A stretch of 64,000 nucleotides of DNA from Sedimenticola selenatireducens (GTDB lineage Bacteria > Pseudomonadota > Gammaproteobacteria > Chromatiales > Chromatiaceae), in NCBI RefSeq assembly GCF_007625115.1, contig NZ_VMNH01000005.1:62001-126000 (forward strand), in the 5' to 3' direction. The notes below the pieces were generated by a model that searched no databases, was not told the origin of the DNA, and was given only the letters and a program-made list of their open reading frames with translations. A program made the position numbers and the translations under genes. Of this stretch, positions 2,593 through 14,754 are shown one piece after another; positions within the stretch are counted from its first letter, which is position 1, and each line of letters opens with the position of its first letter.

Positions 2593-5500
2593 ATGCTGGG
2601 TCGCTTTTTCAACAATCATGTCTTAGCCAACCTGACGTTTGGTCTGGTGCTTGTCGTAGGCTTCCTCTCCTATAATCTGATGCCCAGGGAACAGGACCCC
2701 AGTATCAATTTCAACTGGATTGATATCACCACCGTGCTCCCGGGTGCTGCTGCCGCCGATGTGGAAAAACGGGTCACCGAGGTGCTGGAAAAGAAGATCC
2801 GCACCCTCTCGGATATCAAGTTTGTCTCCAGCACCAGCCGGGAGAGCATCTCCAGCATCCTGGTGCGCTTTGAAGACATTCCCCCTGAGGTCTTTGATAA
2901 GCGGGTGGCCGATCTAAGGCGCGAGGTACAAAACGCCGATGATGAATTACCGGACAATGCCACCACGCCCTTTGTTTTTGAGATCACTACCGCCAATGCG
3001 TTCCCCAGCGCCACCCTCGCCATTGTCGGTCCGGCAGATGATGAAAATCTGCGGCGCCAAGCCGAGAATGTGAAAAAAGATATTGAACGAATCAAGGGGG
3101 TTGACCGCATCCTCGACACCGCACTGCGCGACCCGGAACTGCAAATCAACTTTTATCCAGAACGCCTCGAAAATGCCGGCGTCTCTCCCAGTCAGCTGGC
3201 CGATACTGTCGCACGGACATTTCAAGATCTGGCGGCTGGAAGCGCCCGGGTGAATGACCAAAACTGGCTGGTGCGGATCATTGGCCAGGACAGCAATCCT
3301 GAATATCTCGCCGCTCTGCCGGTACTGGGGGCGACAGGCGAGGTCCCACTTGGGGATCTGGCCCAGGTGGTCCGCGCCCGGGAGAAGCAGGACAAAGTCG
3401 TGTTCTACCAGAACCAACCCGCTGTCATGCTGGCCATCACCAAAAAGGAGAGCGCCAACACACTGGAGCTGGTGCAGCAGATTGCCGATTACGTGGAGAC
3501 ACGGAATCAATTCACGGATAAGACCGGGGTCAGGGTGGTACTGATCGACGACCAGACCGAAATTACCCGTAATGCGCTCAATATTATGCAGACCAACGCC
3601 CTACTGGGATTGATTATGGTGCTGTTTGTGACCTGGCTATTTCTGGGTACGCGCATATCGCTACTCACCACCATCGGCATCCCGTTTATCCTGGCCGGCA
3701 CCTTTCTGGTACTCAACAGCATTGATCAGACCCTCAACGTCAGCGTCCTTTTGGGTGTAGTGATCAGTCTCGGCATGCTGGTGGATGACGCCGTGGTAGT
3801 GGTGGAGTCGATCTACTATCGCCTGCAACGTGGCATGGCGACACTCCCCGCTACACTGGAGGCGTTGCGTGAGGTGGTGGCCCCGGTCACCACCGCCGTC
3901 CTCACCACCATGGCCGCCTTCCTGCCGCTGATGCTGCTGCCCGGCATCCTTGGTAAGTTCATGCTGATTATTCCCCTGGTGGTCACTATCGCCTTGGCAA
4001 TCAGCCTGATTGAGGCCTACTGGATGCTGCCAGCCCATATACTCGGTGCCAACATCAGCTTCAAGAACCCTTCTCGCATGCAGCGGTGGCGTACCAACGC
4101 ACTGCACTGGGTTCGGGTGAAATACACACTCATGCTGGTGCGCGCCCTGCGCTGGCCGAAAAGCATACTACTCAGTGTTCTCCTAATGTTCATTGGGGCA
4201 TTTATTGCAACGGGCAATGGGCTTGTGAAGATCGATTTTTTCGCCACCGACCCCATCCGCCTGTTCTACGTCAGTCTTGAGATGCCAGCTGGCACGCCTC
4301 TCGAGGTAACCCGTGATAAGGTTTTGCAAGTTGAAGAGAAGATCCGTAACAAGATCCTGCCGGGCGAAACACGCAATATCCTCAGCTATGCTGGACAACT
4401 CTTTACCGAAACCGCGCCCTTCTTCGGTGACCACTATGGACAGGTGCTGATAGCCCTCAATCCGAAGACCGATGAACTTCGCAGTGTCGATGGGATGATC
4501 GAATCGATGCGCAGCGACATTGAATCCACTGCAGGTCCGGACAAAATATCCTTCCTCCGTCTGGCAGGTGGCCCGCCCACCTCCAAACCCATTTTGGTCA
4601 AAGTGCGCGGCGATGATACTGAGATCATCCGCCAGGCGGTCAAAGACCTAAAGCAGATCATGAAGCTGGACCCGGCCATCCGGGACATTACCGACGATGA
4701 CAGCCAGGGACAGATGGAGCTGGCACTGCGGGTGAATCAGGATGCGGCACGCCGGGCCGGCATCAGCCCGGCCGAGGTAACCCGCACCTTACGACTGCTC
4801 GTGGACGGTGAGATCGTCAGCAAGATGCAGGACCAGGGGGAAGAGCTGGAGATCCGGGTACGCGCTTTGCCCCGCACGCTATCGACCATCACTGAACCTG
4901 GAAACTTTACCCTGTCATTGCCCAACGGCGGGCGTATCGCACTCAAGGAGCTGGTACACAGCGAGACAGGCCCCAGCATTAACAGTATTCGCCACTATAA
5001 CTTCCGTCGCACAATTACCGTGGAAGCGGATCTTGACAAAACCCTCACCGATACTGTGACGGCCAACAAGGCCATTCAAGACGGATGGGGCAAGATTGCC
5101 CAGCGCTATCCCAGCATCAATCTCGACTTCTCTGGTGAGCTAGATGATATCCAGGAGAGTATCGACTCTATTGCCGTACTGTTCCTGTTTGGTATCGGCC
5201 TGATGTACCTAATTCTCGGCACCCAGTTCAAGAGCTATTTCCAGCCCCTGATGATCCTGGCAACCGTTCCCATGGCCTTCACCGGCGTGGTGATCGGACT
5301 GGCCATTACCAGCAACCCGCTCAGCCTGTTCACCCTCTACGGCGTGGTCGCTCTGGCCGGTATTGCGGTCAATGCGGCAATCGTATTGATCTCCGCGGCC
5401 AACGAACGCCTGAATCGCGGCATGAGCGTACTGCATGCCACGCTGTATGCCGCCCGGCGGCGGGTAATCCCGATCCTGATCACCTCCATGACCACAATCG

Positions 5501-5727
5501 CCGGACTCTTCTCCCTAGCCACCGGCCTGGGTGGATCGTCCCTGATGTGGGGACCGGTGGCCACGGCCATTGTCTGGGGGCTGGCGGTCTCTACGGTATT
5601 GACCCTGTTCGTGATCCCGCTGCTTTATCGCCTGTTCATGGGTAATCGCTGGGTCTCAGAGCAACGAATACGGGCCAATCAACGCCACCAATCCAAGCTT
5701 CAGGCGGCGCCGGAAAATCGTATATAA
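2593..5727 (+). CDS. RND efflux transporter permease (AcrB/HAE1-like)
   Basis: 1044 residues, the usual size of an RND pump. It begins one base after the adaptor stop. The N-terminal transmembrane helix (FGLVLVVGFLSYNLMP) precedes the first periplasmic porter domain. Helices 2-6 follow at about residues 330-480, and the fourth carries the proton-relay aspartates in GMLVDDAVVVVESI. The second periplasmic domain spans about 550-850, and the last helices end near 1020. The pump is driven by proton influx and exports hydrophobic or cationic compounds. The PadR regulator upstream suggests inducible detoxification. The gene ends at a strong hairpin terminator. Confidence 0.92.
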   Translation: MLGRFFNNHVLANLTFGLVLVVGFLSYNLMPREQDPSINFNWIDITTVLPGAAAADVEKRVTEVLEKKIRTLSDIKFVSSTSRESISSILVRFEDIPPEVFDKRVADLRREVQNADDELPDNATTPFVFEITTANAFPSATLAIVGPADDENLRRQAENVKKDIERIKGVDRILDTALRDPELQINFYPERLENAGVSPSQLADTVARTFQDLAAGSARVNDQNWLVRIIGQDSNPEYLAALPVLGATGEVPLGDLAQVVRAREKQDKVVFYQNQPAVMLAITKKESANTLELVQQIADYVETRNQFTDKTGVRVVLIDDQTEITRNALNIMQTNALLGLIMVLFVTWLFLGTRISLLTTIGIPFILAGTFLVLNSIDQTLNVSVLLGVVISLGMLVDDAVVVVESIYYRLQRGMATLPATLEALREVVAPVTTAVLTTMAAFLPLMLLPGILGKFMLIIPLVVTIALAISLIEAYWMLPAHILGANISFKNPSRMQRWRTNALHWVRVKYTLMLVRALRWPKSILLSVLLMFIGAFIATGNGLVKIDFFATDPIRLFYVSLEMPAGTPLEVTRDKVLQVEEKIRNKILPGETRNILSYAGQLFTETAPFFGDHYGQVLIALNPKTDELRSVDGMIESMRSDIESTAGPDKISFLRLAGGPPTSKPILVKVRGDDTEIIRQAVKDLKQIMKLDPAIRDITDDDSQGQMELALRVNQDAARRAGISPAEVTRTLRLLVDGEIVSKMQDQGEELEIRVRALPRTLSTITEPGNFTLSLPNGGRIALKELVHSETGPSINSIRHYNFRRTITVEADLDKTLTDTVTANKAIQDGWGKIAQRYPSINLDFSGELDDIQESIDSIAVLFLFGIGLMYLILGTQFKSYFQPLMILATVPMAFTGVVIGLAITSNPLSLFTLYGVVALAGIAVNAAIVLISAANERLNRGMSVLHATLYAARRRVIPILITSMTTIAGLFSLATGLGGSSLMWGPVATAIVWGLAVSTVLTLFVIPLLYRLFMGNRWVSEQRIRANQRHQSKLQAAPENRI

Positions 5728-5740
5728 TGCCCAGCCTTGC

Positions 5741-5781
5741 GCCAGCCCATGACCACTACAGTCATGGGCTGGCGGCGTTTT
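5741..5781 (+). terminator. Rho-independent terminator after the padR-RND operon
   Basis: A perfect 13-base stem (GCCAGCCCATGAC pairing with GTCATGGGCTGGC, 7-base loop) is followed shortly by a TTTT run. It lies 13 bases after the RND stop codon. Confidence 0.8.
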
Positions 5782-5808
5782 AAATGACGACTGACTATAC
5801 TGCTATCT

Positions 5809-6144
5809 ATGAGCAATCCATTTACCGCCGCCTGGAGCGAACAGGGCCATCTGATCTGTCTGGGACGCTGGGAGATCAGCTATCAGGGCCGACCCCTGGA
5901 GATCCCCCAGCCCAAAGCCGAAGAAGATATGGGCACCTACGGTATCTACTCTTTCCTCTATCCGGATGACCCGGAATTTGCAGAAGGACTGAATGAAGAT
6001 GACTGGGTGCTGGAGAACATCGACTGGCTGAGCGACCTGTTTATTGAGAACGACATCCCCATTGATGAGCAGCACGCCCGCTGGTTCTACCAAGCGGTCA
6101 ACGGCAGTGACTGGCGTTGCGGCAGTTGTGGTGGCTGCACCTGA
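5809..6144 (+). CDS. Small conserved-type protein with a C-terminal CGSCGGC motif, function unknown
   Basis: 111 residues. The protein is acidic and aromatic, with no signal peptide or membrane segment. It ends WRCGSCGGCT, with its three cysteines clustered in the last seven residues as CxxCxxC. Such a flexible tail could bind a metal or an iron-sulfur cluster, or act as a redox tether; none of this is demonstrated. No good ribosome binding site is visible before the ATG at 5809. The stop codon directly abuts the start of the MFS transporter gene, so the two are probably co-expressed. I do not recognise a named family. Confidence 0.7.
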   Translation: MSNPFTAAWSEQGHLICLGRWEISYQGRPLEIPQPKAEEDMGTYGIYSFLYPDDPEFAEGLNEDDWVLENIDWLSDLFIENDIPIDEQHARWFYQAVNGSDWRCGSCGGCT

Positions 6145-7302
6145 ATGAGTGAGCACTCACCCCTGCGTCTGCAGCTCGTCGTCTTTGCCCTGGTCGCGGC
6201 CTCCTTCACCAATATCTATCTGACTCAACCGGTGCTGCCGGTGTTGCAGGCCGAGTTCGTTGCTGACACCCTGCTAGTCTCCTATACCGTGGCCGCAGTC
6301 ATCCTGGGCATTGCCCTCTCCAATCTACCGTTTGGCGTGCTGGTGGATCGACTGCCGATACAGCCGATCATCCTCATCGGCGGTATTGCGGTGGCCATTG
6401 CTGGACTGATCTGCGCAACCACCCATAACATCTGGCTGCTAATTGGCGCTCGTTTTGTACAAGGCCTGTTTATCCCGGCACTGACCACCTGCCTTGCCGC
6501 TTATCTGGCCAAGAGCCTGCCCATAGAACGACTCAATGTCGTCATGGGGTCCTATGTCTCCGCCACGGTCGTGGGTGGACTCGGCGGTCGGCTACTCGGC
6601 GGCTGGATTCATCCGCCACTGCATTGGCGTTACGCCTTTGTCTCCGCTGCCGTGCTGATTCTGATCGCCACCTTTGCGGCCCTGCGCATCCTGCCCAGTC
6701 AACCTAAGGCCACAACCACCTCACTGGAACAGCCGCGTTTCCTATCACTGTTAAAACGTTGGGAGTTGGTACGCATCTACCTGGCCGCGGCCGGCGGGTT
6801 CTTTATCTTTTCATCGGTGTTTAATTATCTGCCCTTTAGGCTGGCAGCCGCTCCTTTCAGCTTCTCCACCGAGCTAATCACCCTGCTCTATCTGGTCTAT
6901 GTGATGGGCATTTTCATGGGCCCCCTCTCGGGCAGGATCAGCAACCGCATCGGCAGTGGTTACACCCTGATGGGTGGCACGTTGCTTCTCGGGGTATCAA
7001 TCACCCTCACCCTGCTACCTTACATCAGCGCTATCATTCTCGGTCTACTGGGCCTGTGCGCCGGTTTTTTTGCCGTGCACGCCGCTGCTGTCGGATCGCT
7101 CAATCGGCGACTGACTGGGGGCCAGGGCCGAGCCAACGCACTCTATGTACTGTTCTACTACGTGGGTGGTTGGATAGGCATCACCGCCAGCGGCTTCGCC
7201 TATACCCAGTGGGGCTGGCAGGGTGTCATTCTCATCTGCTTACTCCTGTTGTTACTTCCTTTTATGGCAGGAATAGGAGAGCAAAGGGACGCCTCCCGCT
7301 AA
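6145..7302 (+). CDS. MFS transporter, YnfM-like exporter
   Basis: 385 residues with about twelve hydrophobic segments, the usual size of the major facilitator family. The ATG directly follows the stop of the CGSCGGC gene. The loop between helices 2 and 3 reads NLPFGVLVDRLP, a form of the MFS signature G-x-L-x-D-R. The N-terminus (TNIYLTQPVLPVLQAEF) resembles YnfM/arabinose-efflux proteins. It is an inner-membrane, proton-coupled exporter by family; the substrate cannot be read from sequence. Transcription probably continues from 5809. Confidence 0.85.
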   Translation: MSEHSPLRLQLVVFALVAASFTNIYLTQPVLPVLQAEFVADTLLVSYTVAAVILGIALSNLPFGVLVDRLPIQPIILIGGIAVAIAGLICATTHNIWLLIGARFVQGLFIPALTTCLAAYLAKSLPIERLNVVMGSYVSATVVGGLGGRLLGGWIHPPLHWRYAFVSAAVLILIATFAALRILPSQPKATTTSLEQPRFLSLLKRWELVRIYLAAAGGFFIFSSVFNYLPFRLAAAPFSFSTELITLLYLVYVMGIFMGPLSGRISNRIGSGYTLMGGTLLLGVSITLTLLPYISAIILGLLGLCAGFFAVHAAAVGSLNRRLTGGQGRANALYVLFYYVGGWIGITASGFAYTQWGWQGVILICLLLLLLPFMAGIGEQRDASR

Positions 7303-7363
7303 TTTCGGGTATATTATTCGGCCTTAAGAGCAACCTTAACCTGATTAGAGAAGACTGTACGCC

Positions 7364-8218
7364 GTGAAGTTGAGCCTGGAAGAGTTCCGTAACTGGAAAA
7401 ACAAGAGTATCACCCTGCTGGGCATGTCCGGCGTGGGCAAGACGCACCTCTCCAAGATGATGCGCCGCTATAACTGGTTCCACTACTCTGGGGACTACCG
7501 CATCGGCACCCGTTATCTGGATGAGTCTATTCTCGACACCATCAAGCAGGAGGCGATGCAGGTCCCTTTCCTGCGCGATCTGCTACGCAAGGACTGGATC
7601 TATATCCGCAACAACATCAAGGTGGATGACCTGGGCCCAGTCCTCTCCTATGTCGGAAAACTGGGTAATCCAGAACTGGGCGGCGTACCGCTGGGGGCGT
7701 TCCAGCAACGCCAGGCAGAGTACCGCACGGCCGAAATCAACGCCATGCGGGACGTGCCGGAGTTTATCCACAAGGCACGGGATATCTATGGCTACCAGCA
7801 CTTTGTCAATGATGTAGGGGGCAGTCTGTGCGACATGGAAGCGCCTGGGGTGATTGACCTGCTGGCAGAGCACAGCCTGATTCTCTACATCCAGGCCACC
7901 GAGGCCGATGAAGAGGCCGAACTAATCCGGCGTGCCCAGAACGATCCGAAACCGCTCTACTTCAGACCTGAATTTCTGCGTCAGCAGGTGCAGGCCTACC
8001 TGAAAGAGCAGGGATTGGCCTATGCCGCCGAGATGGACCCGGATGATTTCACCCGATGGGTCTTCCCCCATCTGTTCCGTTCCCGCATTCCGCGTTATGA
8101 AGCGATTGCGGAGCCGCTCGGCTATACCGTCACCTCCTATGAGGTCAACCAGGTAAGGGACGAAGCCGATTTTCTTGCCCTGCTGGAACTGGCCATATCA
8201 CGCAAACAAACGCCTTGA
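7364..8218 (+). CDS. P-loop ATPase of unknown role, upstream of metA
   Basis: 284 residues starting at GTG (7364). A Walker A motif, GMSGVGKTHLSK, lies at about residues 20-31. The rest contains an acidic, helical body (GYQHFVNDVGGSLCDME, DLLAEHSLILYIQATE). It looks like a soluble kinase-like or ATPase protein rather than an ABC or AAA+ protein. The gene ends 12 bases before metA and may be transcribed with it. It has no recognised function. A role connected with homoserine/methionine metabolism is only suggested by position. Confidence 0.75.
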   Translation: MKLSLEEFRNWKNKSITLLGMSGVGKTHLSKMMRRYNWFHYSGDYRIGTRYLDESILDTIKQEAMQVPFLRDLLRKDWIYIRNNIKVDDLGPVLSYVGKLGNPELGGVPLGAFQQRQAEYRTAEINAMRDVPEFIHKARDIYGYQHFVNDVGGSLCDMEAPGVIDLLAEHSLILYIQATEADEEAELIRRAQNDPKPLYFRPEFLRQQVQAYLKEQGLAYAAEMDPDDFTRWVFPHLFRSRIPRYEAIAEPLGYTVTSYEVNQVRDEADFLALLELAISRKQTP

Positions 8219-10744: not shown

Positions 10745-12865
10745 ATGTCCGCGAACCGCTTGAGAGAGTGCACCAGCCCCTACCTGCAACAGCACGCTGA
10801 CAACCCCGTGGATTGGTATCCCTGGGGAGAAGAGGCACTCGCCAGGGCACACGCAGAAGATAAGCCGATACTCCTCTCCATTGGCTACTCGGCCTGCCAT
10901 TGGTGCCATGTCATGGCGCATGAATCCTTCGAAGACCCGGCCACTGCCGAGGTCATGAATCGCCTCTTTATCAACATCAAGGTGGATCGCGAAGAACGGC
11001 CCGACCTGGACAAGGTATATCAGTCCGCCCATCAACTGCTGGCACAGCGCCCCGGCGGATGGCCGCTGACGGTCTTTCTCACACCTGATGACCAAACGCC
11101 GTTTTTTGCCGGCACCTATTTCCCTGATGAGGAGCGCCACGGCCTTCCCGCCTTTATGGGTGTATTGCAAAATATCTCCAACGCGTTTCATGAACAGCGG
11201 GCTGACATCAAGGAGCAGAACAAGGCCCTGATACGGGCCATTAATCAGATTGACCCGATTGCCACAGGCAAGGCCACTCCACTTGACTCAGCTCCCCTGG
11301 AGACAGCACGACAACAACTGGCCAGCGGATTTGATGAAACCCATGGCGGATTTGGCCGCGCGCCCAAATTTCCCCACCCAAGCAGTCTGGAACAGCTGTT
11401 GCGCCACTGGGCTGCCACAGGCACGCAAGACCCCCGTTCACTCTATATGGCGGATTTCACTCTCACCCGCATGGCGCTTGGCGGCATCAACGACCAACTG
11501 GCGGGTGGGTTTTGTCGCTACTCGGTGGATGATCGCTGGATGATCCCCCACTTTGAAAAGATGCTCTATGACAACGGCCCGCTATTGGCCCTCTATGCCG
11601 ATCTATGGCAAGCCACAGGCAAATCGCTGTTCAAGGATACTGCGCTGAAGACCGCCCAGTGGGTCATTGAGGAGATGCAATCGCCAGAAGGGGGATTCTA
11701 TTCATCGCTGGATGCCGACAGTGAAGGAGAAGAAGGGCGCTTTTACGCCTGGAGTAACGAAGAGGTCAAACAACTGTTAGACGAAGATGAATACCGCCAC
11801 GTCAGTCGTTATTACGGACTGGACCAGGAACCCAATTTTGAAGGTAAATGGCATCTGCATTGTCAAACAGATATCGCCACATTGAACCACGAACTGGGGA
11901 GTACATCTGAGCAGGCACGCAATCTTCTTGAACAGGCGAAACTGAAACTACTGGCTCAGCGGGCACACCGCATCCGACCAGGACGGGATGAGAAGATCCT
12001 CACCACCTGGAATGCCCTCATGATCAAGGGCCTGGCCAGGGCAGGGCGTCTCCTGGAGAGACCAGAACTGATCGCTGCAGCACAGCAGGCGGTTGGTTTC
12101 ATTCGAGACAAACTCTGGCAGGATCAACACCTCCTGGCCTCATACAAGGATGGACGCGCCAACTTCAATGGCTATCTGGATGACTATGTAAATCTGATAG
12201 ATGCACTGATTGAATTACTTCAGGCCGAGTGGAACAACGCCACACTCCAATTCGCAACCGATCTGACTGACATCATCCTGGAGCGTTTTGAAGACAAAGA
12301 CCAAGGCGGCTTCTATTTTACTGCCAATGACCATGAGCAGCTGATCTACCGGCCAAAACCCTTCGGCGACGAATCAATCCCGGCAGGTAACGGTGTCGCC
12401 GCGGCTGTACTGACACGACTCGGCCACCTACTCGGTGAAACCCGGTACCTCAAGGCCGCTGAGCGCACCCTGCACTGCACCTGGGATCAACTCAAGCAAT
12501 TCCCCCACGCCTACTGCACCCTGCTGCAATCTCTGGATGAACTGCTCAATCCTACCGAAATAATCATCCTGCGTGGTGAACCCGATACCCTTTTACCTTG
12601 GATTAAAAGGGCACACCAACACTACGCCCCCCGGCGTATGACATTGGCCATACCATCGGCTACGACCGATCTCCCAAAAGCCCTTTCGGTGAAACAGCCC
12701 GCAGGAGAGGTTGTCGCTTACCTCTGCCACGGAACCCACTGCGACGCACCCATCATCTCACTCGAAGATTTCAATTCAGCACTGAGCAGCACTGAGGCAG
12801 CGGCTCATGATAAGAGCCAGCGATTTGATGGGGCCGTAGGCTCTTTTAAACGATTCCGAGAGTAG
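10745..12865 (+). CDS. Thioredoxin-domain/six-hairpin protein (YyaL, SPATA20-like, DUF255)
   Basis: 706 residues, the normal size of this family. The first 160 residues are the DUF255 thioredoxin-like domain, with the [14 protein letters not shown] signature near residue 55 and [14 protein letters not shown]. The remainder is an alpha/alpha-barrel typical of glycan- or sugar-processing enzymes ([33 protein letters not shown]). The family is widespread but its reaction is not established. It is cytoplasmic, with no signal peptide. It stands alone, between a divergent HD-GYP gene and the ECF sigma operon 109 bases downstream. Confidence 0.9.
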
Positions 12866-12912: not shown

Positions 12913-12941
12913 GGAATAAATCCATCGGCGCCTGCGTCTAA
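12913..12941 (+). promoter_or_regulatory. Candidate ECF-type promoter upstream of the sigma factor gene
   Basis: GGAATAA (12913-12919) and CGTCTAA (12935-12941) have the layout of group IV sigma promoters: a GGAA-type -35 and a CGTC-type -10, with 17 bases between GGAAT and CGTCTAA. The start codon is at 12975. Such operons commonly drive their own transcription. Recognised by eye, not scored. Confidence 0.45.
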
Positions 12942-12974
12942 CGGGCAGTAAAGAAAAAGGGGGAGCAGGTTTTA

Positions 12975-13520
12975 ATGTTTAACGGCTGGCTCACAGAACG
13001 AAGCAACAGGCAGCGGTTGGCGGCACTGAGTCCACGACTCAGGCGTCTTGCTTTTGCCTGGTGTGGCGATGAACACCTAGCCGATGACCTGACCCAGGAG
13101 ACACTAGCCAAGGCCCTCTCCAGCCTTCATACGCTCAAGCGTGACAATGCCCTGGAAGGCTGGGCCTTTGCCATCCTGGCCAACTGTTTTCGAGACCACT
13201 GCCGGCGCAGCAGGGCAACGGATCCCTTTGAAGAGCATGCAGATGATTCGCAACTCTCCTCCGATGATCAGATCACTCAACAGCAGAACGTGTTGCGCGT
13301 CCAGCAAGCCATTGCCAGGCTTAGCCCTCCACAACGCGAGGTGCTGCTGCTGGTCGACCTGGAGTCCTGCAGCTATGCAGAAGTTGCCGATATCCTTGGC
13401 ATACCGGTTGGCACGGTCATGAGCCGATTGAGCCGCGCCCGACAAACACTTAAACAATTTCTGCAACCGGTCAAGCGCACGCAGACTACCAACCGGCCAT
13501 TCATGGAGCGGATTAAATGA
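12975..13520 (+). CDS. ECF (group IV) RNA polymerase sigma factor
   Basis: 181 residues. Region 2 lies at about residues 18-85 (FAWCGDEHLADDLTQETLAKA). Region 4 lies at about 115-165 (SPPQREVLLLVDLESCSYAE, then LGIPVGTVMSRLSRARQTL). There is no region 1 or 3, as expected for extracytoplasmic-function sigma factors. A purine-rich sequence (AAGGGGGAGCAGG) precedes the ATG. The stop overlaps the next start as ATGA, so sigma factor and putative anti-sigma are translationally coupled. The regulon is unknown, but a matching promoter element lies upstream at 12913. Confidence 0.92.
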   Translation: MFNGWLTERSNRQRLAALSPRLRRLAFAWCGDEHLADDLTQETLAKALSSLHTLKRDNALEGWAFAILANCFRDHCRRSRATDPFEEHADDSQLSSDDQITQQQNVLRVQQAIARLSPPQREVLLLVDLESCSYAEVADILGIPVGTVMSRLSRARQTLKQFLQPVKRTQTTNRPFMERIK

Positions 13521-14227
13521 GTGACTTCCATTACAGCGATGACCAACTCAACGCCTTCGTCGATGATGAAATGGCAGCCAATGAACGGCTGGAGATATTA
13601 AGTGCCGCCGCGGGTTCAGATTCACTTCGTGCCCGAATAGTGGAGTTGCAGTACCTCAAAGAGTCTACTCGAAACGCCTTCCCTCTCCACACGGAGAGGC
13701 CGACAACAAGTCGGCCATCTCGGGGGCTCTTTACCCGTTACTTGGCCGCAGCCGCCATCGGAGGCCTCTCACTCTTTGCTGTATTGGCATCCACTGGCCA
13801 TATACAGGCAACCAGAGAACCCGTCCTGGTGACGCTCAATAACACCCCATCCTCATCACAACAGACCCGCGTGGTATTTCACATAAGCAGTGATCGCCAA
13901 CAGGATGCTTCGCTGTTGTTGGATCAGGTGGAGCTTGTAATGCAGGAACACCAGAGCAACGGCCGCCCCATTCGACTCGAAGTCGTGGCCAATAACCAGG
14001 GACTACGCATGCTGCAACAAGGGCGTTCACCCGTAGCTGAACGCATCAGACAGTTACACGCCGTCTATCCACAGCTGATATTCGCCGCCTGCGGCAATAC
14101 CCTTGAACGCATGACTCAAGAGACTGGAGAAAAAATAGACATCCTTCCCGAAGCGATCATCATTCGCTCAGGTGTCTCCTATATTACCCGGCGCCAGCAA
14201 ATCGGCTGGAGCTATATTAAGGTCTGA
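13517..14227 (+). CDS. Putative anti-sigma factor with a C-terminal DsrE-like domain
   Basis: 236 residues. Residues 1-55 (YSDDQLNAFVDDEM, later RARIVELQYLKEST) resemble the cytoplasmic region of anti-sigma factors but lack the zinc-binding His-Cys-Cys set. One membrane helix lies at about 72-92. Residues 115-236 resemble a DsrE/DsrF-like fold, with the protein's only cysteine, Cys192, in FAACGNTLERM. This would put the DsrE-like part in the periplasm. Position directly after an ECF sigma gene with a 4-base overlap supports an anti-sigma role. The pairing of an anti-sigma layout with a DsrE-type domain is unusual. Function is inferred, not shown. Confidence 0.75.
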   Translation: MSDFHYSDDQLNAFVDDEMAANERLEILSAAAGSDSLRARIVELQYLKESTRNAFPLHTERPTTSRPSRGLFTRYLAAAAIGGLSLFAVLASTGHIQATREPVLVTLNNTPSSSQQTRVVFHISSDRQQDASLLLDQVELVMQEHQSNGRPIRLEVVANNQGLRMLQQGRSPVAERIRQLHAVYPQLIFAACGNTLERMTQETGEKIDILPEAIIIRSGVSYITRRQQIGWSYIKV

Positions 14228-14316
14228 AATCAACACCCCGGATCATTAAGGGTGGTAGTGGCCGTGCATAAAAGAGCCGCAAAAGTCAGACTCACACACC
14301 AAAGAGAGGACGTTAT

Positions 14317-14754
14317 ATGAAAATATTATCCCGAGGCTTAATGACCCTGATACTCATTGCCGGCTTGTTTGGCGGACAAGCTGTGATGGCGGAGGCTAAG
14401 GCACCCCACAAGATTGTCATCCAAGTCAGCACAGATGAACCCCGCACTCAGCAGATTGCATTGAATAACGCCGTTAACCTGCAAAAGGCCCTGGGACAAG
14501 ATAACGTTGTCATCGAGATCGTCGCCTATGGTCCAGGCTTGGGTATGTTGACCAGTACGTCACCCCAAGGTGAACGCATCTCTAGCCTGGCGATGCAGGA
14601 CATCCAATTCAGTGCCTGCGGTAATACGATGAAGGGCGTTGAGAAAAAGACCGGCAAAATGCCAGTACTTCTGGATGGCGTTAAAGTAGTGGAGGCCGGT
14701 GTCTTACGTATTATGGAGTTGCAGGAACAAGGCTATGCCTATGTCAGGCCCTGA
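14317..14754 (+). CDS. Secreted DsrE-family protein
   Basis: 145 residues. A signal peptide covers residues 1-25 (LMTLILIAGLFGGQAVMA). The mature part is a DsrE-like domain (KIVIQVSTDEPRTQQIALNN, VEIVAYGPGLGML-type strands). Its single cysteine, Cys101, lies in FSACGNTMKGVEKKTGK, matching the FAACGNTLERMTQETG site of the preceding protein. DsrE-type proteins bind or relay sulfane sulfur or other small ligands at such a cysteine. AGAGAGGA precedes the ATG. It lies 89 bases after the putative anti-sigma gene and ends at a hairpin, so it closes the sigma operon. A role as ligand donor or sensor partner is inference. Confidence 0.85.
   Translation: MKILSRGLMTLILIAGLFGGQAVMAEAKAPHKIVIQVSTDEPRTQQIALNNAVNLQKALGQDNVVIEIVAYGPGLGMLTSTSPQGERISSLAMQDIQFSACGNTMKGVEKKTGKMPVLLDGVKVVEAGVLRIMELQEQGYAYVRP

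Follow-up and report, generated by a model that had tools for sequence, protein, structure and literature searches.

What signal would be read by an extracytoplasmic function (ECF) sigma factor when the membrane protein encoded with it carries a predicted periplasmic domain of the DsrE fold, and when a secreted protein of that same fold is encoded beside both? Such a set of three genes, all on the forward strand, lies in the 4.03 Mb genome of Sedimenticola selenatireducens (contig C26), within the 64,000-nucleotide stretch of DNA analysed here (the window). DsrE is a fold of sulfane-sulfur carriers, and we consider it probable that the set forms an autoregulated ECF sigma and membrane anti-sigma circuit of sulfur oxidisers, in which periplasmic sulfane sulfur loads Cys192 of the anti-sigma factor and frees the sigma factor. 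The features of the locus are as follows.

12913..12941, + strand: ECF-type promoter of the operon, with -35 GGAATAA at 12913-12919 and -10 CGTCTAA at 12935-12941, as read from the sequence
12975..13520, + strand: ECF sigma factor of 181 amino acids with regions 2 and 4 (PF04542, PF08281 and TIGR02937 above cut-off)
13517..14227, + strand: putative membrane anti-sigma factor of 236 amino acids with a C-terminal DsrE-fold sensor (four-nucleotide overlap, AlphaFold2 model, sigma gene upstream in relatives)
13517..13687, + strand: N-terminal helical anti-sigma-like domain, residues 1-57, presumably cytoplasmic (model helices 8-15, 21-32 and 35-54)
13742..13798, + strand: predicted membrane helix, residues 76-94 (mean Kyte-Doolittle value 1.79 over 19 residues; model helix 74-91)
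13859..14224, + strand: DsrE-fold domain, residues 115-236, presumably periplasmic (Foldseek match to 1l1s; profile-profile match with the partner)
14090..14092, + strand: codon of Cys192, the candidate sensor cysteine (all 79 anti-sigma sequences, that of the window among them, have Cys here)
14317..14754, + strand: secreted DsrE-family protein of 145 amino acids, with a signal peptide at about residues 1-25 as judged by eye (match to 1l1s by sequence, and AlphaFold2 fold)
14617..14619, + strand: codon of Cys101 in the secreted DsrE partner (kept as Cys by 72 of 79 partners, counting that of the window)

A sigma factor encoded with a one-helix membrane protein

Within its 181 residues the sigma factor has only regions 2 and 4, in agreement with the definition of the ECF group, with Pfam E values of 3e-13 for PF04542 and 4e-19 for PF08281. 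A sigma factor encoded on pSymA of S. meliloti is about 40% identical to it. Its gene shares four nucleotides with that of the putative anti-sigma factor, for which the AlphaFold2 model (mean pLDDT 84.7) and hydropathy together give an N-terminal helical bundle, a single hydrophobic helix and a C-terminal alpha/beta domain. A first-pass annotation of the window, made from the letters and their open reading frames, had proposed this overlap of a sigma gene with an anti-sigma-like membrane protein, and the proposal is upheld here. The N-terminal domain of the membrane protein probably binds and inhibits the sigma factor, and its DsrE domain would face the periplasm. The plan recalls that of class I anti-sigma factors and of RseA with RseB, in which an N-terminal helical region, one membrane helix and a periplasmic part are accompanied by an additional periplasmic protein, and it differs from RseA/RseB in sensor fold and inducer. 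At the level of protein families the N-terminal region gives weak matches: of 57 homologs, 22 match zf-HC2 and two match RseA_N at E values of 0.1 or less, and the window protein matches neither.

Two other modes of signalling were considered and rejected. For the N-terminal region of the window anti-sigma factor, sensing of the zinc type is incompatible with the location of the protein's sole cysteine, which sits within the DsrE domain. FecI-type signalling from the cell surface was also set aside, with no receptor present among the neighbours scanned, which were only some of those at the locus.

Two related DsrE domains and their cysteines

Residues 115-236 of the anti-sigma factor, the segment for which the first-pass annotation had set the presence of a DsrE fold as a test beforehand, align with 1l1s (MTH1491) at a TM-score of 0.93 by target length and an E value of 3e-10 in Foldseek, and the model of the secreted partner aligns with the same structure at 0.94, with identity of 32-33% for both in the structure alignments. 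Subunit A of DsrEFH (2hy5_A) aligns at 0.64 with the anti-sigma domain and at 0.60 with the partner, again by target length. The top structural matches of both models include 1l1s, 2pd2 and DsrEFH subunits, which places both in the DsrE fold, and model confidence is high for this fold in each protein (pLDDT 90.4 for the partner). The partner also matches 1l1s by sequence at an E value of 6e-13. The two window domains are clearly related to one another, both by BLASTP between the C-terminal half of the anti-sigma factor and the secreted protein (E 9e-14) and by profile-profile comparison of the anti-sigma DsrE domain with the partner (probability 99.8, E 2e-27). A profile comparison with the DsrE protein of the window genome itself gave no significant match. 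The Pfam model PF02635 gives the window partner 20.0 bits, below the cut-off of 22.7, and does not match the window anti-sigma factor; it gives the partners of three relatives 45, 49 and 18 bits, and matches 28 of 57 anti-sigma factors at E up to 0.1. The start of the window partner resembles a signal peptide and a hydrophobic stretch precedes the DsrE domain in 79 of 79 partners, consistent with the secreted DsrE partner that had been proposed.

In fold and sequence these domains are closest in kind to the stand-alone DsrE-like proteins MTH1491 and ST0148 (2pd2), from which the present system differs in having one copy fused to a membrane anti-sigma factor and one copy secreted. The DsrEFH complex (2hy5) has the same fold at lower similarity, and differs in being a cytoplasmic sulfur relay.

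Cys192 and Cys101 are the only cysteines of the window anti-sigma factor and of the window partner respectively, and both lie in the shared site ACGNT, as the first-pass annotation had read from the translations. The invariance of Cys192 is not simply a product of the search. The cysteine was part of one of the two scan patterns, but 46 of the 79 anti-sigma sequences do not match that pattern and still have Cys at the position, as do 27 of 27 hand-picked sequences from a pattern-free search. At the Cys101 position, A, S, G or K is found in seven of the 79 partners. The cysteine is therefore kept more strongly in the anti-sigma factor than in the partner, which argues that the chemistry is probably seated in the anti-sigma factor, and its natural loss from these seven indicates that a cysteine-free partner can persist.

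Conservation of the trio among sulfur oxidisers

Named genomes yielded 332 relatives when scanned, and the best 80 of them were analysed, with neighbouring genes found by profile searches in all six frames; these relatives are not independent, and Thioalkalivibrio is over-represented among them. The sigma gene is directly upstream of the anti-sigma gene in 75 of the 80 loci (of the rest, three lie at a contig edge and two, L089 and L090, have no sigma gene there), and 75 of the 80 have a separate DsrE gene alongside, downstream on the same strand in 65 and divergent in 10, with no adjoining partner gene in five loci, one of them at a contig end. The co-occurrence of the three genes across genomes, which the first-pass annotation had offered as a way to check its idea, is thus common. 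The hosts include Sedimenticola, Thiodiazotropha, Thioalkalivibrio, Sulfuricaulis, Muproteobacteria, Acidiferrobacterales, Cocleimonas, some Betaproteobacteria and others, and many of the named hosts belong to sulfur-oxidising genera. The closest named relative among the 80 is that of Sedimenticola thiotaurini, with 71% identity in the anti-sigma factor. Within the order, 63 of 210 genomes gave a match, some of them only through the DsrE part. Spread by plasmids was considered and rejected, with no plasmid record covering 80% of the anti-sigma factor.

Several loci depart from the common arrangement. No first sigma gene was found in L089 and L090 (around 5200-7800), where the anti-sigma gene is kept and the partner DsrE has lost its cysteine; in L090 the GGAATA/CGTC motif still precedes the anti-sigma gene. 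A second ECF sigma gene lies up to 2.6 kb downstream of the anti-sigma gene in 11 of the 80 loci (L082, L083, L084, L088, L089, L090, L094, L095, L096, L101 and L104), and in L038 a second sigma gene precedes one for a DUF3379 protein (PF11859) that matches an anti-sigma model weakly, below the cut-off, an arrangement that suggests a nested second sigma and anti-sigma pair. In the complete genome G060 (L062:5813-6507) the anti-sigma factor is matched as two overlapping pieces in different frames, with sigma gene, promoter and DsrE gene in place, which may be either a disrupted gene or a sequence error.

A conserved promoter motif and predicted autoregulation

Of the 74 testable loci, 66 carry the motif GGAATA-N15-17-CGTC ahead of the sigma gene, compared with 0.07 expected from dinucleotide shuffles. 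Autoregulation of the operon through a GGAATA/CGTC promoter, which the first-pass annotation had suggested from the GGAATAA/CGTCTAA element of the window, is thereby strongly supported as a prediction from sequence. Four of the eight loci in which the motif was missed (L097, L111, L118 and L142) keep GGAATAA but lack CGTC at the expected spacing, and each of them also belongs to the seven loci with a cysteine-free partner. Where the DsrE gene is divergent it carries its own copy of the motif in nine of 10 loci, in several of them with a porin-type gene after it. The gene for the secreted DsrE protein is therefore kept under this promoter in either arrangement, and it looks like the constant output of the circuit.

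A lone gene for a secreted DsrE protein, preceded by the same promoter motif, occurs in three genomes of two genera (L224:5332-5769, L063:5284-5709 and L064:5904-6386). The gene that follows it is mutL, identified by Pfam in L063 and by cluster or by eye in L224 and L064. As to what follows the divergent DsrE gene, one gene family occurs there in L087, L102, L109, L129, L138, L140 and L152, and another in L060 and L061. Those of L138 and L060 match the porin family PF07396, and that of L138 weakly resembles the selenite/tellurite porin ExtI.

sox genes behind the same motif

The genomes for the comparisons of regulons and of soxY loci were chosen by hand, and those called trio-negative are genomes of the order without a match in the order-wide search. 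In G060 and G062, two complete genomes of one genus, GGAATAW-N14-16-CGTCT has six sites each and the reversed motif none, and the sites pair between the two genomes. They precede the sigma operon, a lone gene for a secreted DsrE protein by mutL, soxB, soxX-soxY-soxZ-soxA, a gene for a SoxAX-binding-protein (SAXB)-like protein and one for a TsuA-like transporter; by NCBIfam, SoxB, SoxX, SoxY, SoxZ and SoxA are above the cut-off, and SAXB and TsuA below it. A site also precedes soxXYZ in G067 and soxYZ in G214. Across 14 trio-positive genomes there are 35 motif sites and 13 for the reversed motif. Loci were available for 30 of the 35, of which 20 could be assigned and 10 could not, the number without a target being about what chance would give; four further sites of the 35 lie at a TsuA-like gene, two own operons and one DsrE gene. 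In 11 Thioalkalivibrio genomes a variant, GGAATAR-N14-16-CGTCC, has 29 sites compared with five reversed, and these precede the own operon in 11 cases, soxYZ in seven, spread over seven of the 11 genomes, tandem DsrE genes in six and soxB in one (T. sulfidiphilus ALJ17), with four sites unassigned. When soxY loci were compared directly, the strict motif was upstream in 6 of 30 from trio-positive genomes (0.09 expected from mononucleotide shuffles) and in 0 of 30 from trio-negative genomes, a difference for which hand arithmetic gives a one-sided Fisher p near 0.012, with four of the six positives from one genus. Control of sox genes through this motif is therefore well supported in some lineages as a sequence-based prediction, and is not general.

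Relation to described regulators

Sulfite-responsive ECF factors that control sulfite-oxidising enzymes have been described in S. meliloti (RpoE4) and Starkeya novella (SigE) (PMC3511301, PMC6527743). According to the accessible text of these papers, the promoter consensus of such circuits is GGAAT at -35 and CGTC at -10 (PMC6527743), their targets are induced on thiosulfate, and most anti-sigma factors of the ECF26 group have been described with COG5662 domains (PMC3511301). The present system resembles the ECF26 sulfite circuits (RpoE4/RpoE1, SigE) in having a co-transcribed anti-sigma factor, sulfur-related targets and the GGAAT/CGTC consensus. It is set apart, as far as those descriptions go, by its sox targets, its DsrE sensor and its secreted DsrE protein, neither DsrE part being mentioned in the accessible text. 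The view of the first-pass annotation that no system of this form had been described can therefore be retained for the DsrE sensor, within the literature searched, and has to be given up for sulfur-related ECF circuits with GGAAT/CGTC promoters, which were already known (PMC3511301, PMC6527743).

Among the sources searched, which left aside subscription journals and the 2021 ECF classification (which might list such a group), the accessible text held no description of a DsrE-bearing anti-sigma factor or of a sox regulon under ECF control. The co-mentions of DsrE and anti-sigma factors in the accessible parts of PMC10512742 and PMC12563154 are unrelated to the operon, PMC8103513 mentions neither DsrE nor sulfur, and where sox genes and ECF factors are mentioned together the text seen states no link between them. 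The operon is likewise not mentioned in the accessible text, tables aside, of an RNA-seq study of the host Thioalkalivibrio thiocyanoxidans (PMC5744179).

Control of sox genes by sulfane sulfur has been reported for SoxR of Hyphomicrobium, through cysteine modification (PMC10451225, in the part accessible to us). SoxR and sHdrR are ArsR-type repressors of the cytoplasm, in contrast to the periplasmic sensor acting through a sigma factor that is proposed here, and none of the three window proteins matched an ArsR family in a Pfam scan.

Proposed mechanism and alternative explanations

We envisage that the anti-sigma factor holds the sigma factor through its N-terminal helical domain and presents the DsrE domain, with its invariant cysteine, to the periplasm. 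Periplasmic sulfane sulfur, whether from thiosulfate, polysulfide or Sox-bound sulfur, would load Cys192, and the loaded anti-sigma factor would then be inactivated, probably by regulated proteolysis, as in other one-helix anti-sigma factors. The freed sigma factor would transcribe its own operon and, in several lineages, also sox genes, the gene for a TsuA-like transporter or that for a porin. The secreted DsrE protein, as the constant output, would likely serve as a periplasmic sulfur carrier or co-sensor; it might supply sulfur or compete for it, or it might act as a feedback brake by entering a mixed oligomer with the DsrE domain. More tentatively, and as something we hold less likely than not, the anti-sigma factor may itself be a relay station. 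Sulfane sulfur of thiosulfate, polysulfide or SoxYZ would then be taken up by the secreted protein and handed to Cys192, so that persulfide transfer between homologous domains would free the sigma factor. If this were so, a sigma switch would be gated by a periplasmic persulfide, and external sulfur would be sensed directly without import. A role is also proposed for secreted DsrE proteins. The system provides a concrete candidate sensor that has a single invariant cysteine, together with a defined promoter and a predicted sox regulon, and named Thioalkalivibrio strains are among the genomes concerned, which makes the question reducible to a reporter-and-mutant experiment.

A number of observations weigh against the proposed circuit. 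The closest structure, 1l1s, is titled as a protein of unknown function, and sulfur binding by this branch of DsrE is therefore not established. Partner Cys101 is lost in the seven loci noted above. The strict motif GGAATA-N15-17-CGTCT occurs once in the window genome, at the own operon (12913), compared with five occurrences reversed, and a looser form has four matches compared with three reversed; over nine genomes of the genus the strict motif has 28 matches and its reverse 23, so that no wider regulon is seen there. The window genome does have sox genes, with family matches to soxB and soxY on contig C2 and soxX-, soxA-, SAXB- and soxZ-like genes alongside by eye, and a second soxY on contig C28, and neither soxY locus has the strict motif. 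Response-regulator-like and large-sensor-like genes, identified by eye, lie directly upstream of the C2 sox genes (L236:11018-13779) and are a candidate separate sox regulator of this genome. Elsewhere, 24 of the 30 soxY loci in trio-positive genomes have no motif, with the concentration of positives in one genus already given, and two of the 14 trio-positive genomes (G129 and G014) have no strict site at all. In Sedimenticola, then, the switch may control only its own sigma factor, anti-sigma factor and DsrE protein, and the sulfur-sensing circuit that the first-pass annotation had named as a possibility gains support from the motif before sox genes in several lineages and none from the window's own genome.

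It is highly improbable, in our estimation, that the circuit is a general sensor of envelope thiol or oxidative stress with no specific link to sulfur metabolism: a single Cys192 could be oxidised, and no link to sox is seen in the window genome or across its genus, but the targets in other lineages are thiosulfate-oxidation genes and many named hosts belong to sulfur-oxidising genera. The targets also bear on the idea that the signal is sulfite, which would modify or bind the DsrE site in a stress response extended to sox genes, and which is suggested by the sulfite response of the described circuits with GGAAT/CGTC promoters, as far as the accessible text of those papers goes (PMC6527743, PMC3511301). 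The genes recognised as targets are those for Sox, TsuA-like, SAXB-like and DsrE proteins and for porins, in a survey in which no search was aimed at sulfite-oxidising genes and some sites remained without a target. The sensor domain is moreover of a fold found in sulfane-sulfur carriers, and we regard sulfite as an improbable signal.

A different division of labour between the two DsrE parts is also conceivable, in which the secreted protein would be the sensor and the anti-sigma DsrE domain a docking site, shielded from proteolysis until the partner is loaded, by analogy with the action of RseB on RseA. That the partner has the fold of the domain and adjoins it in most loci, that the motif is kept before nine of 10 divergent partner genes, as would fit feedback, and that related DsrE proteins oligomerise would all suit such docking. 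The distribution of cysteine and of the partner gene does not: the cysteine is invariant in the anti-sigma factor and absent from some partners, and five loci were found with no partner gene alongside. We therefore think it rather unlikely that the partner is the sensor, and prefer loading of Cys192 by sulfane sulfur.

Other genes at the locus and in relatives

A gene for a 706-residue protein (10745-12865) lies directly upstream of the promoter in the window, and its cluster was found in 10 of 81 loci compared. In L080 (7304-9094) a 5'-nucleotidase/SoxB-like gene, below the SoxB cut-off, comes directly after the DsrE gene, and a gene of the same cluster lies nearby in L142.

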